From Methanosarcina sp. MTP4 (lineage in GTDB: Archaea > Halobacteriota > Methanosarcinia > Methanosarcinales > Methanosarcinaceae): a DNA stretch of 64,000 nt. The notes below the pieces were generated by a model. That model worked only from the letters and a program-made list of their open reading frames with translations. It had not been told where the DNA came from and searched no databases. Positions 33,311-39,541 of the stretch are shown here, in pieces. Both the position numbers and the translations under genes were made by a program. Within the stretch, counting starts at the first letter, position 1, and the number at the start of each line of letters is the position of its first letter. The stretch is from assembly GCF_000970045.1 (NCBI RefSeq), contig NZ_CP009505.1, positions 2,604,001 to 2,668,000 of the forward strand, read 5' to 3'.

Positions 33311-33510
33311 ATGCCCTTCAATCCACACAGCTTTTTCAACCCTGATTAAAGAGAGACAAAAAATAGAAGCCCTGCCGGAATTTGCTGTCAACTTTTCTGT
33401 CTGCCTTAGTTGTTCTGTCTGCTAAATAAGAAGCCATCTAAAATCCTTCCTGCCCGGCAGGGCTTCCAAGTTGCTTTTTTTAATGAGATTCTTTTTCAAC
33501 TATCCATATT

Positions 33511-33570
33511 CCATACTTTAGAATTCCATACTTTAGAATTCCATACTTTAGAATTCCATACTTTAGAATT
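33511..33570. repeat. 15-bp tandem repeat (ccatactttagaatt), four exact units
   Basis: Four identical units are followed by a diverged one. The array lies 35 nt before the tatC fragment and resembles none of the other arrays in the window. Confidence 0.95.
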
Positions 33571-33605
33571 CCAAAATTTCGATTTTCAAGCTGCATCGAT
33601 GCTGT

Positions 33606-33720
33606 TTCTCTTCTTCACTCCCAGCACCCTTACGACCACCATGCTGATCTCGAAAAAGATAACCATGGGAATGGCTACCATGAACTGGCTGATGACGTAA
33701 GGGGCATTATCGCAGCCCCT
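33606..33720 (-). pseudogene. Fragment of tatC 3' end
   Basis: Read on the minus strand, this segment encodes VISQFMVAIPMVIFFEIS and then MVVVRVLGVKK, almost identical to the end of the intact TatC at 36502-37263 (VISQVMVAIPMVIFFEIS). The upstream part (ggggctgcgataatgcccc) matches the GAAITPPD codons but lacks one base, so it is frameshifted. Only about 115 bp of the gene remain. It is a relic of a duplication or recombination of the tat locus, 3 kb from the parent gene. It has no start codon and should not be translated. Confidence 0.85.
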
Positions 33721-33753
33721 GCAAACTCTTGTTAATAGTCTGGGTTCCACATT

Positions 33754-33797
33754 TTTAAGCGCATATCTGTCTCTTGATGTTGAATTATGCGCTTAAA
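33754..33797. repeat. 12-bp inverted repeat tttaagcgcata
   Basis: The arms at 33754-33765 and 33786-33797 pair perfectly around a 20-nt loop, just beyond the tatC fragment. Possible terminator or regulatory hairpin. Confidence 0.55.
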
Positions 33798-34430: not shown

Positions 34431-34495
34431 ACAGTTAAAAGATGAAATCTAAAAGAAAAAGTGAGAAATATCTTATAAATTGGGTGGGATTTAAA

Positions 34496-36403
34496 ATGGA
34501 ACGTAAAACAAATAAGAATAACTGTAGTTTTGCAGTAATATTTACTTTCTCAATATTAATTATAAGTATGCTTGCAATTCCTGTGTATGCAGCCGATTGG
34601 CCGATGTGGAGAAATGACCAGGGAAGTACCGGAGCTTCGGCAGAAACTATCAATTTACCACTGACAGAAAAATGGCATTCTAGTGCACCTTCTGTGGAAG
34701 AAAATGGTGCAGTTGTTTCAAATGGAATTATATATATGTCTACTGATGATGGTAAACTATATGCCTTTGTAGTTGCAACCGGGACAGTAGTACCCGGATT
34801 TCCAGTTGCTACAGGATTCAACTATGGTTCACCAGCAATTGACGTTTCAAATCAAAAAGTATATGCTTTAGCGAGTAGCAAATTATTTGCTTTCAATTTG
34901 GACGGAACTAATGCATGGACCCAGACCGTAGGAACTATTGGAACTAATTATAATGAAGGACCTGTAATTGATGAAGGATATGTGTATATAAAAGCTGGAA
35001 ATCAATTACGAAAATATAGTTCTACAGGAGTATTGCAATGGAATTCTACAACATCGGGGACTAACACACAACCGTCAATAATGGGCAACTATGTGTATTC
35101 AAATTCTGAATACGGTCAAATTAGAAAATATGATAAAGCAACTGGAGCTGAAATTATAGGCGGAGGCTTCCCTATTTCAACATCATCTGGTGCCTCTGTA
35201 CCGGCTGTTGTAAATGGAAAAATATTCTTTAAAGGAACTCAAACATATGCATATGATGCTAACACAGGTGCTTTGCTCTGGCAACAACCCTCTGGTGGAG
35301 ATAGTACCTGGTCAGGATCTCCAGCTGTATATAATGGAGTCGTATATGTTTACGGTTGGGATGGAGTAATGTATGCATTTGATGAAAATACAGGTACTCC
35401 TATGGCAGGTTTCCCGTCAACTATTTTAAATCCAAGTGGTGACCGTAATTGGAATTCACCCGCAGTTGCAGGCGATAAAGTGTTCATCGGCGCTGGAACC
35501 AGTCAAAAATTGAAAGTTCTGGGAGCTGCAGGAACAGCAAATGCTGGAGTAGTATTAGAAGAACACCTTGCATTTTCAACTGATCCTCAGGGTTTCGATC
35601 TGTGCTCACCTATAATATCCGATGGTGTTGTTTTTGCAATGCTTGATGGTGGAGGACTTTATGCATATTTCGACAGTGGGACAATTTGGATCGGTGGAGC
35701 TATAGTGATAGAGAATGATGAAGATTGTACTGAATCACAGGATGTAACACTGGATCTTGACAGAGGTTCTAATAATTTAGTTACTGAAATGAGAATTTCA
35801 GAAGACCCATTTTTTGCAGGAGCAGTTTGGGAACCTTATGCAACTAATAAAATGTGGACTCTTTCCTCAGGATATGAAACCAAAACCGTATATGTTCAAT
35901 ATAGAGATTCAAACGGCGAACTCTCAAATGTATTCAATGATCAGATAGAATATTCCGAAAACTGCGGAGCTACTCCTTCAGTGGAATCCGCTGACACCGA
36001 TGGGAAGAAAAAAGATACTTTCGTTCAAGGACAGTCGATCTACGTTATAGGAAGCAACTATGATCCTTCCACTACGTATGATCTCTATGTGGTCGAAGAC
36101 ACCACATGGAGTGATCACTTGACAATTCCTGAAAGGGTCTCATTAACCGCTAAATGGGTAACCTCAGATAGCTCAGGTAATTTACCTGTTACAAAAATAT
36201 GGGACGACTCAGTACTTGGCACATATGATGTAATTATTGATGTCAATAGTAACGGAATATATGATGTGGGTATCGACGCTATAGACGACATGGACGTGAA
36301 CAATGCAGGCTTCTCGACAGAAGTCCCAGAGTTCCCGACAGTTGCACTCCCGATGGCTGCAATCCTCTGCCTGGCATTTGTGTTCCAGCGCAGAAAAGAC
36401 TAA
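34496..36403 (+). CDS. PQQ-type beta-propeller surface protein with PEF-CTERM sorting signal
   Basis: I start at ATG 34496 (MERKTNKNN) because gggtgggat lies just before it; the frame also has an ATG at 34442. The roughly 635-residue protein has a signal peptide (FAVIFTFSILIISMLAIP, cleavage near VYAADW) and a beta-propeller of PQQ-like blades to about residue 370 (NGIIYMSTDDGKLYAF, NGVVYVYGWDGVMYAFDENTG). Beta-sandwich-like modules follow. The C-terminus is VPEFPTVALPMAAILCLAF plus a basic end, the PEF-CTERM signal that archaeosortases process in Methanosarcina. It is therefore exported, cut and probably lipid-linked at the cell surface. No archaeosortase is in the window. Codon use is AT-rich compared with the tat genes that follow. 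Confidence 0.9.
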   Translation: MERKTNKNNCSFAVIFTFSILIISMLAIPVYAADWPMWRNDQGSTGASAETINLPLTEKWHSSAPSVEENGAVVSNGIIYMSTDDGKLYAFVVATGTVVPGFPVATGFNYGSPAIDVSNQKVYALASSKLFAFNLDGTNAWTQTVGTIGTNYNEGPVIDEGYVYIKAGNQLRKYSSTGVLQWNSTTSGTNTQPSIMGNYVYSNSEYGQIRKYDKATGAEIIGGGFPISTSSGASVPAVVNGKIFFKGTQTYAYDANTGALLWQQPSGGDSTWSGSPAVYNGVVYVYGWDGVMYAFDENTGTPMAGFPSTILNPSGDRNWNSPAVAGDKVFIGAGTSQKLKVLGAAGTANAGVVLEEHLAFSTDPQGFDLCSPIISDGVVFAMLDGGGLYAYFDSGTIWIGGAIVIENDEDCTESQDVTLDLDRGSNNLVTEMRISEDPFFAGAVWEPYATNKMWTLSSGYETKTVYVQYRDSNGELSNVFNDQIEYSENCGATPSVESADTDGKKKDTFVQGQSIYVIGSNYDPSTTYDLYVVEDTTWSDHLTIPERVSLTAKWVTSDSSGNLPVTKIWDDSVLGTYDVIIDVNSNGIYDVGIDAIDDMDVNNAGFSTEVPEFPTVALPMAAILCLAFVFQRRKD

Positions 36404-36501: not shown

Positions 36502-37263
36502 TTAGCTCAAATCCTCTGTCGCCCTCAGTTCATTGTTTTTCTTCACTCCCAGCACCCTCACAACCACCATGCTGATTTCGAAAAAGATAACCATGGGAAT
36601 GGCTACCATGACCTGGCTGATTACGTCAGGAGGCGTTATCGCAGCCCCTGAAAACAGGAAAATGATGTAGATGTGCTTTCGGTAGGTTACAAGAGTTTCA
36701 TACTTCACGAAACCATTCCTGGTAAGGAAGGTTAGCACGATTGGAAGCTCGAAGATCAGCCCGAAAAGGGCTGTTCCTGCTGCTGCAAAGGAGATGAACT
36801 TGAAGACCGAATAGGTCGCGGAAATCCCTGATCCTGCTGCGTTCAGGTAGAGGTATTTCAGGAAAAGGGGTAGCATTATAAAGTAAGCGTAGGAAGCCCC
36901 AAGGATGAACATGACAAGGGAGGCCGAACTTAAGAAGACGAACTGGCTGCGTCTGACAACTACCGGATTCCTGAAAGCAAAGCGCTGTGAAATGCCCCTG
37001 TAGATGTAAAAGGCAATAAAAGGCAGAGCTAACAGGAGCCCGATGATGACAGAGAGCTTTAGCTTGAGCATCATCACTTCCAGAGGGGTGACGTAGACAA
37101 GTTTTGCACCTTCCGGGAGGAGATCCTCTTTCATCCTTTCTATCAGGGGGCCTGTAAACTGGAAAGACAGCGCAACGCCCGAAAACAGGACTGCCGCGAT
37201 TAATACCAGTTTTTTTCGCAGGGTCAGCAGGATTACGCTTAAACTTTCAATAGCTTCAGACAT
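36502..37263 (-). CDS. tatC: Twin-arginine translocase TatC, paralogue lacking the signal-binding glutamates
   Basis: The 253-residue protein has six membrane helices and TatC hallmarks: VTPLEVMMLKLKLS after helix 1, FELPIVLTFLTRNGFV in helix 4, and ITPPDVISQVMVAIPM (the D211-equivalent) before helix 6. The N-terminus reads SVILLTLRKKL where TatC normally has HLxELRxRL, so the E15-equivalent is lost. The first cytoplasmic loop (RFAFRNPVVVRRSQ) lacks the YxHE motif, so the E103-equivalent is also missing. The glutamate of the FELP motif (E170-equivalent) is kept. It is divergent from the second tatC, with a TATA box (gatataaaag, about 37294-37303) suggesting a nearly leaderless start at 37263. 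It probably works as partner of the other TatC. Confidence 0.9.
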   Translation of the reverse strand: MSEAIESLSVILLTLRKKLVLIAAVLFSGVALSFQFTGPLIERMKEDLLPEGAKLVYVTPLEVMMLKLKLSVIIGLLLALPFIAFYIYRGISQRFAFRNPVVVRRSQFVFLSSASLVMFILGASYAYFIMLPLFLKYLYLNAAGSGISATYSVFKFISFAAAGTALFGLIFELPIVLTFLTRNGFVKYETLVTYRKHIYIIFLFSGAAITPPDVISQVMVAIPMVIFFEISMVVVRVLGVKKNNELRATEDLS

Positions 37264-37362
37264 ATGGAGTACCTTTTTTGCAACGCAAAAGCGCTTTTAT
37301 ATCGTTTTTCATCCACTTTCTTTTTGTCCCTTTTTATTACCCACTTTCTTTTGTTCCACACC

Positions 37363-37434
37363 ATTTCTTGTAATATCCTTATTTCTTGTAATATCCTTAT
37401 TTCTTGTAATATCCTTATTTCTTGTAATATCCTT
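37363..37434. repeat. 18-bp tandem repeat (atttcttgtaatatcctt), four exact units
   Basis: The array lies in the 274-nt divergent spacer of the two tatC genes, between their TATA boxes. It is identical over all four units, which suggests recent expansion. Confidence 0.95.
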
Positions 37435-37537
37435 ATAAGAGATAGCAGGAATATCCGCGGAGTAGTGTCGGGAATAAATGTAATATTCTGTTCCGATATT
37501 AATATATTTATTTAAGTGCAGTGTAAAGACAGTAATC

Positions 37538-38383
37538 ATGAATTCTCATAACCCCGGAAACCAGACCCCTGCCGGAGAAGCCACCGGCCCCGAAAACAAG
37601 CACTTATTCGACCACGGGTCCGTACACGCTAAGGGCTCTGCATACGCAAAGGGATCCCCGTCTGCAGCCGTTTCAGGGGTTCCCGGGGACATAGAAGAAC
37701 CCGTCATGGGCCACCTGTATGAGCTCAGGAACCGGCTGGGGATCGTCCTGATCTGGCTTTTCCTGGCAATGATGCTTGCGTACCCGTTTTCGGAGAAGGG
37801 GATGCTCCTCATCTGGAGAGAATTCATAAGCCCCGAAATTAGCATGGCAGTGTACTCACCCCTGGAATGGGTCTTTGCCAGGCTCAGGCTCTGCCTGGTC
37901 TTTGCCCTTGCGGTTTCCATTCCTCAAATTTTTTACCAGCTCTACAGGTTCGCAGGCAAAGGGCTCTATCCCCATGAGAAGCGCTTCTTCCTCAAAGTCG
38001 TGCCTGCTTCCTTCCTGCTCTTTATCCTGGGAACAGCCGTGGGTTACTTCCTGGTTCTGCCGGTGATGTTCAAATATGTGATCTTCTATTCGGGAGACCT
38101 GGCTTCAGCGCAGCTTTCGGTCCACAGCACCCTTTCAGCCGTGACCACGATCCTTGCAGGTTTCGGTATTGTGTTCCAGGCACCCCTGCTTGTTATCTTT
38201 GCCGTGAAAATGGAGCTTGTAAAGTACGAAACCCTCAAAAAACAGAGGATTTTAGTCTACAGTGCAATTCTGGCCCTTTCTCTGTTCCTCTCCCCGGACC
38301 CGACCTTCATTGCACAGTTCCTAGTCGCCTTGCTGCTGGTAATCCTCTTCGAATTCAGCCTGCTTCTGGTCCGGCTCTTTTGA
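37538..38383 (+). CDS. tatC: Twin-arginine translocase TatC, paralogue with intact signal-binding site
   Basis: The 281-residue protein has a 60-residue disordered N-terminal extension (HNPGNQTPAGEATGPENK) and then MGHLYELRNRL, the canonical TatC N-terminal motif. The first cytoplasmic loop has LYPHEKRFF, the E103-equivalent. Helix 4 reads GIVFQAPLLVIFAVK, so the usual FE(L/V)P glutamate (E170-equivalent) is replaced by Gln. The end has SPDPTFIAQFLVALLLVILFEF. This is the reverse of the divergently encoded paralogue: signal-peptide contacts kept, intramembrane glutamate lost. TATA box ttaatatattta at about 37498-37509. Two tatA genes follow on the same strand, so this is the core of the Tat operon. 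Confidence 0.92.
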   Translation: MNSHNPGNQTPAGEATGPENKHLFDHGSVHAKGSAYAKGSPSAAVSGVPGDIEEPVMGHLYELRNRLGIVLIWLFLAMMLAYPFSEKGMLLIWREFISPEISMAVYSPLEWVFARLRLCLVFALAVSIPQIFYQLYRFAGKGLYPHEKRFFLKVVPASFLLFILGTAVGYFLVLPVMFKYVIFYSGDLASAQLSVHSTLSAVTTILAGFGIVFQAPLLVIFAVKMELVKYETLKKQRILVYSAILALSLFLSPDPTFIAQFLVALLLVILFEFSLLLVRLF

Positions 38384-38514: not shown

Positions 38515-38859
38515 ATGATAGGGTCCACTGAACTGATCGCAATTCTAATCGCTGCCCTCTTCCTCTTCGGACCCCGGAAACTCCCCGAGCTTGCAAAGTC
38601 TCTCGGGAGTGCCGTAGGGGAATTTAAAAAAGCCCAGCGTGCGGCAGAACTCGGGCTTACCGACTTTGACCCCTACATCCGGAAAGTCAGGCAGGAGGGC
38701 AGCCCCGGCGAAAACGGGGAAAATAAGGAAAAAGAGGAAAAGGAAGTAAAGGAAGTAAAGAAAGAAGAAAAAAACAAAAAGAAGGAAAATTCCGACCTCG
38801 GAAGCGTGCTGGAAGCAAAATCTTCCCTCCCGGAAAAGGAAGGAAAAGGGGAGAGCTGA
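38515..38859 (+). CDS. tatA: Twin-arginine translocase TatA, paralogue 1
   Basis: The protein starts MIGSTELIAILIAALFLFGPRKLPELAKSL: a short N-terminus, one membrane helix, the FG hinge and an amphipathic helix, all hallmarks of TatA. The last 50 residues are an unusually charged K/E tail (KEKEEKEVKEVKKEEKN). TatA oligomers form the export pore with TatC. A TATA-like box (tttttatattt, 38483-38493) lies about 25 nt before the ATG, so translation is probably leaderless. It lies 131 nt after tatC. Confidence 0.93.
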   Translation: MIGSTELIAILIAALFLFGPRKLPELAKSLGSAVGEFKKAQRAAELGLTDFDPYIRKVRQEGSPGENGENKEKEEKEVKEVKKEEKNKKKENSDLGSVLEAKSSLPEKEGKGES

Positions 38860-39217: not shown

Positions 39218-39541
39218 ATGCTACCAATAGGCACAAGTGAACTGATACTGATATTTGCAGTGGTTATGCTCCTTTTCGGGGCAAGCAAACTACCGGAACT
39301 TGCCAGGTCCATGGGAGGTTCGGTGGGAGAATTCAAGAAAGCCCAGAAAGAATCCGAACAGTCCTTTAAGGAATTTGAAAAATCCATAAAGGAGCCCACG
39401 GCTGAAACCCCTGCTGCAAAAACCAAAGTTCAGGAAACTGCTGAAAAGCTGGGCATCGACATCAAGGGCAAAACCGACGACGAACTTCTGGAAGAGATCC
39501 AGAAAGCCGCCGAAAAGCCCAAAGAGGTCGCAGAGCCCTGA
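39218..39541 (+). CDS. tatA: Twin-arginine translocase TatA, paralogue 2
   Basis: The 107-residue protein, MLPIGTSELILIFAVVMLLF followed by GASKLPELARSMGGSVGEFKKAQ, has the TatA helix, hinge and amphipathic helix. The tail is acidic and alanine-rich and ends ETAEKLGIDIKGKTDDELLEEI. It differs from paralogue 1 in tail charge, so the two may form different mixtures. A gaggtct site precedes the ATG. It is last in the tat cluster. Confidence 0.93.
   Translation: MLPIGTSELILIFAVVMLLFGASKLPELARSMGGSVGEFKKAQKESEQSFKEFEKSIKEPTAETPAAKTKVQETAEKLGIDIKGKTDDELLEEIQKAAEKPKEVAEP

Follow-up and report, generated by a model that had tools for sequence, protein, structure and literature searches.

Why does an archaeon keep two TatC proteins when one of them has lost the site at which the twin-arginine signal is read? 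The question is raised by a divergent pair of tatC genes within a window of 64,000 nucleotides from Methanosarcina sp. MTP4. The minus-strand gene (36502-37263) encodes a protein of 253 aa, here called the M-type or signal-blind TatC, and the plus-strand gene (37538-38383) a protein of 281 aa, here called the P-type or signal receptor TatC. An earlier note, made from the sequence alone, described the motifs HLYELRNRL and LYPHEKR in the P-type protein and ILLTLRKKL and FELP, without YxHE, in the M-type protein, and proposed that each protein lacks what the other keeps. Both open reading frames and all of these motifs are present as described, judging by the ORF translations and the alignment, and the complementarity holds in a milder, asymmetric form. 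We assign a probability of roughly two in three to the reading that this locus specifies a twin-arginine translocase with two kinds of TatC, in which the P-type and M-type proteins would share one mixed core complex.

Pfam, a search of solved structures by sequence, and comparison of predicted structures agree that both proteins are genuine full-length TatC with the six-helix glove fold. The Pfam TatC family (PF00902; cut-off 25.1) covers the full domain in both, with 141.2 bits for the M-type and 165 bits for the P-type protein. The AF2 model of the M-type protein (pLDDT 80.7) aligns to Aquifex TatC (4hts) with a VIA-align Z of 21.0 over 224 residues and to E. coli TatC (9dzz) with a Z of 16.9, and the P-type model (pLDDT 69.4) aligns to 4b4a with a Z of 20.9 over 220 residues and to 9dzz with a Z of 18.3; the nearest non-TatC folds reached Z values of 6.0 and 7.8 in the M and P model searches, respectively. 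The P-type protein carries an N-terminal extension of ~50 residues that is predicted with low confidence and is disordered in the model (residues 6-53 have pLDDT <50). A search of the 4.2-Mb single-contig genome returned these two TatC genes and no others.

The two genes share a common divergent upstream region of 274 bp (37264-37537, assigned to no strand), which contains an 18-bp tandem repeat in 4-5 copies (37363-37434). Two TatA/B-family genes lie downstream of P-type tatC on the plus strand and complete a compact tat locus: one at 38515-38859 (PF02416, 46.7 bits), whose product carries the motif FGPRKLPEL and is putatively TatB-like, and a second at 39218-39541 (62.3 bits), with the motif FGASKLPEL and putatively TatA-like. 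In most of the Methanosarcinaceae loci inspected, an FGP-type TatA/B gene resembling the first of these is found close to the P-type gene. No tatA gene was found next to M-type tatC in the window using the ORF list and Pfam, and no ORF in the window passed a simple filter for Tat signal peptides (RR motif plus hydrophobicity). Elsewhere in the window, at 33589-33792 on the minus strand, the 3' end of M-type tatC recurs as a truncated copy (92 bp with 93% identity and flanking matches in addition), and an ORF at 34442-36403 lies between it and the intact gene. A short tandem repeat with a 15-bp unit (33508-33573) sits next to this copy.

Residues were compared against E. coli TatC, whose sequence was confirmed to be identical to chain 9dzz_A. 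In the 2026 structure of the E. coli TatBC complex with its signal, the first arginine is water-bonded to E15 and stacked beneath F94; the second is held by E103 in a salt bridge and packs against Y100, and the phenylalanine of the motif lies against F94, L9, H12, and L13 (PMC13323110). The window P-type protein retains every one of these contacts except L9, which is valine; H12, E15, F94, L99, Y100, and E103 are all kept. The window M-type protein has I, T, G, V (or A, depending on the alignment), and R at positions 12, 15, 94, 100, and 103, and across its TM2-TM3 loop good alignment to other TatC is lost; Y126, E170 (within FELP), and the TPPDVISQ segment (T208, D211, Q215) are kept. The loss of the E15 and E103 equivalents claimed for this protein thus stands, and extends to H12, F94, and Y100. 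Taking H12, E15, F94, Y100, and E103 as the residues that make a TatC a twin-arginine receptor (PMC13323110), the P-type protein has the full set and the M-type protein has none.

This division is not a chance feature of one genome. H12, E15, E103, and Q170 are present in all 134 P-type sequences, F94 in 133, and Y100 in 126 (phenylalanine in the other 8). Not one of 119 M-type sequences has H12, F94, Y100, or E103, and the same sequences keep E170 in 112 cases, T208 in 119, D211 in 99, and Q215 in 114. Because 24 of the 119 retain E15, the loss of this glutamate, unlike that of E103, is not universal, and the earlier claim needs narrowing on this point. Entropy across the signal loop (94-106) is 1.05 bits in P-types, 0.94 in bacteria, and 2.32 in M-types, whereas region 205-215 is tighter in M-types (0.95 bits) than in P-types (1.48). 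M-types also possess invariant motifs of their own, and the window gene has a dN/dS of 0.08-0.15 against three congeners and 0.10 against a more distant species, indicating purifying selection. The M-type protein is unlikely to recognize twin-arginine signals as E. coli TatC does. In some lineages the M-type protein carries large inserts in the first periplasmic loop (L044:7100-8389, L106:5958-6857), reminiscent of those found in loops of TatC from Myxococcus and Nitratifractor.

The other half of the proposed complementarity was that the P-type protein, with FQAP at the E170 equivalent, has lost a function that the M-type protein keeps. The motif is real, and the functional loss is not. In 13 bacterial TatC sequences, derived from plasmids and chosen without regard to position 170 or to likeness to the M-type, this position is glutamate in 9, glutamine in 3, and valine in 1, while H12, E15, F94, and E103 are kept in 13/13. 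(A set of 61 TatC from genome contigs was dropped as a baseline for this position because one of the two scan patterns used to collect it demanded FE[LMV]P.) Q170 occurs in otherwise canonical alphaproteobacterial TatC from Azospirillum, Sinorhizobium, and Methylobacterium, and a published account terms position 170 a 'glutamate/glutamine residue' and treats E and Q as equivalent (PMC6251230); on both grounds FQAP signifies no loss of function, and Q170 is a normal alternative that is also seen in bacteria with a single TatC. In E. coli, E170A locks TatA assembly and plays no role in the initial signal-binding steps (PMC10092561).

Since glutamine is normal at position 170, the complementarity argument comes to lean on other changes in the TM4-TM6 half of the P-type protein and becomes asymmetric. 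Measured as agreement with positions conserved in the 13 bacterial sequences, the P-type protein is the closer to bacteria in TM1 (90%, against 40% for the M-type) and the TM2-3 loop (82% against 0%), and the M-type protein is the closer in TM4 (78% against 62%) and in the TM5-6 loop with TM6 (from 208 on; 75% against 46%); the regional figures are similar with the larger, biased bacterial set. P-types are commonly changed at Y154, L178, and P221. Their TM5-6 loop, SPDPTFIAQ in the window protein, is one residue longer and displaces the invariant aspartate by one (SPDPT vs. TPPDV), a mismatch that the earlier note had not recorded and that excludes a simple loss of D211. As TatB or TatA docks at the TM5-6 region (PMC13323110, PMC5201420), the closer match of the M-type protein to the bacterial consensus there would make it the more canonical partner for docking. 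Judged by its residues, the P-type protein is the only partner with a predicted receptor site, and the pattern suggests that a division of labor survives in a milder form, with the P-type moderately diverged in TM4-TM6 and the signal site of the M-type fully lost. Two unusual sequences were noted besides. A Methanosarcina-like genome (G156) has a third TatC (L162) with a canonical signal site, cysteine at position 170, and a very long branch, and a 73% complete draft (G430) has a lone TatC (L182) in which the signal site occurs together with FELP and a TM5-6 loop resembling that of P-types (TPDGT), and which may represent an intermediate or undivided form.

Phylogenetic analysis establishes the P-type and M-type proteins as two ancient paralogous clades. 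A maximum-likelihood tree of 103 sequences, built with the signature columns removed, places the M-types with both halves of haloarchaeal TatCt in one clade (UFBoot/SH-aLRT 100/100), the P-types with TatCo in another (100/98), and bacterial TatC in a third (100/94). This topology most simply puts the duplication before the sampled Halobacteriota radiated. The double TatC of haloarchaea consists of M-type domains fused in tandem, and the likeness to it that was noted earlier as a comparison in idea is in fact orthology. Haloarchaeal TatCo has H12, E15, F94, Y100, E103, and Q170 as the window P-type does, none of the TatCt halves (12 first and 12 second) keeps H12, E15, F94, Y100, or E103, as in the window M-type, and the tatCo and tatCt genes are adjacent and divergent like the window pair. 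The window M-type protein differs in being a single six-helix protein with one TatC domain, so the locus is orthologous to tatCo/tatCt without having the fused tandem. The second half of TatCt is also more degenerate than the window protein, with Q215 lost and D211 and E170 mostly lost, which implies that M domains need not all supply a docking site. Dilks is said to have reported in 2005 that both TatC proteins are essential in Haloferax. Haloarchaeal plasmids of Halomarina and Halocatena (L297, L298) carry a fused TatCt-like TatC in which both halves are without the signal site, with no TatCo within ~5 kb; the Halomarina gene adjoins rdfA.

The two types occur together across the phylum Halobacteriota. 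In a class-wide scan, 98 of 238 genomes contained TatC, and almost all of these had exactly two copies; in a phylum-wide scan, TatC was present in 215 of 393 genomes, mostly with two copies and with three domain hits in haloarchaea. From 140 retrieved stretches, 125 genomes were typed, and 115 of these have both P and M, which bears out the co-conservation that had been put forward as a check on the pairing. Two of the other ten have a second copy outside the retrieved stretches (G077, G469), and the remaining eight are drafts or have broken genes (G166, G041, G065, G058, G056, G027, G028, G430). Every typed single-contig genome carries both types, including those in which P and M lie far apart, and either gene alone with the same substitutions was encountered only in a few incomplete drafts. 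Among the pairs contained in a single stretch, 78 have a divergent arrangement, 5 a tandem one, and 1 a convergent one. In several families (Methanoperedens-like f5, f10, f15, f35) the two genes are not linked, and joint transcription is thus not required. One genome (G133) has two P-M pairs; in the M and P subtrees alike, the second groups as sister to a pair from a different genus, and this second pair therefore appears to have been transferred as a unit. A record titled Candidatus Nitrosotalea (L216, G548) contains an ANME-1-like P-M pair and is probably mislabelled or a mixed MAG.

We hypothesize that in the mixed core the P-type protein would bind the twin-arginine signal peptide and supply the single receptor site, while the signal-blind M-type protein would complete the oligomer as a scaffold or docking protomer. 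The M-type would offer a canonical TM4-TM6 face, at which TatA/TatB-family helices may dock and where the cavity residue E170 would sit. In E. coli, three TatC form the core, with TatA/TatB helices placed between adjacent TatC, and for its TatA1B2C3 form one usable signal site has been inferred and further tests called for (PMC13323110). Activity persisted in E. coli TatBC complexes in which half or more of the TatC had been inactivated (PMC3712464, citing Maldonado 2011), and mutations that poison wild-type TatC map to the periplasmic cap (PMC5102672). Together, these observations indicate that a core with receptor-dead protomers is workable. The TatC fold of the E. coli core (PDB 9dzz, 9e01) is common to both window proteins, and its signal contacts are shared by the P-type, but in E. 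coli all TatC are of a single kind and asymmetry comes from TatA/TatB loading, whereas here TatC itself comes in two kinds.

Co-occurrence alone would also be expected if the cell needed two separate systems. Such an arrangement would consist of two homo-oligomeric Tat systems resembling TatAdCd and TatAyCy of Bacillus, with the P-type serving twin-arginine substrates and the M-type another class or a non-RR signal. The two TatC genes per genome, the pair of TatA-family genes downstream of P, the separation of P and M in several families, and the existence of bacteria with two or more TatC loci (PMC3827258) would all accord with it. However, each bacillary TatC examined (Metabacillus, Priestia) keeps H12, E15, F94, and E103 and stands beside its own tatA, whereas the M-type has neither a complete signal site nor a TatA gene next to it in the window; its 94-106 loop is variable, where renewed conservation would be expected of a new binding site, P and M are lost and transferred in concert, and in the loci read haloarchaea fuse M with M and never M with P. 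Separate systems are thus unlikely. A single-protein parallel to the M-type is found in a Nitrospinota MAG (L276, 4001-4657; G547), where one of three TatC is without H12, E15, F94, Y100, and E103 and two are canonical; this odd protein groups with bacteria in a quick tree and seems to be an independent signal-blind case.

The M-type protein might instead be a regulatory or assembly factor, joining P complexes transiently to limit signal sites or recruit TatA without being a stoichiometric core subunit. Retention of the fold and of TM4-TM6 without the receptor site would suit such a role, as would the E. coli TatC-TatC contacts at TM5 that shift with substrate (PMC5102672), but two fused M domains are better suited to permanent neighbors, and TatCt is mentioned in passing among the secretory proteins detected in at least six proteome data sets (PMC7305310), as would befit a stable subunit; we consider this role improbable. 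Least credible by far is that the M-type is a decaying, functionless duplicate, for which one could cite the disappearance of the best conserved site of the family and the truncated copy of its 3' end nearby: the low dN/dS, phylum-wide conservation with invariant motifs of its own, and the fact that it is never lost alone in the closed genomes examined all speak against decay. The shared core complex remains our preferred reading.

A more specific and more tentative form of this reading, which we hold to be possible though somewhat short of an even chance, is that one P and two M make up a hetero-trimeric Tat core in Halobacteriota, with exactly one signal site per complex. TatCt, with two M domains, and one TatCo would give exactly three protomers, and with a P:M ratio of 1:2 the gene content itself would set the asymmetry that in E. 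coli arises when three identical TatC are loaded with one TatA and two TatB. Haloarchaea would then have fused both M protomers as TatCt, yielding three unlike protomers and a fully asymmetric core.

On a simple reading, the haloarchaeal double TatC consists of two fused signal-blind protomers. A search of the open-licence literature returned no prior statement that TatCt and its relatives are without the signal site. A phylum that pairs a receptor TatC with one in which the receptor site is naturally dead bears on how many signal sites a Tat core uses and on whether asymmetry of the core matters, and would provide a natural test of the one-site model from E. coli.
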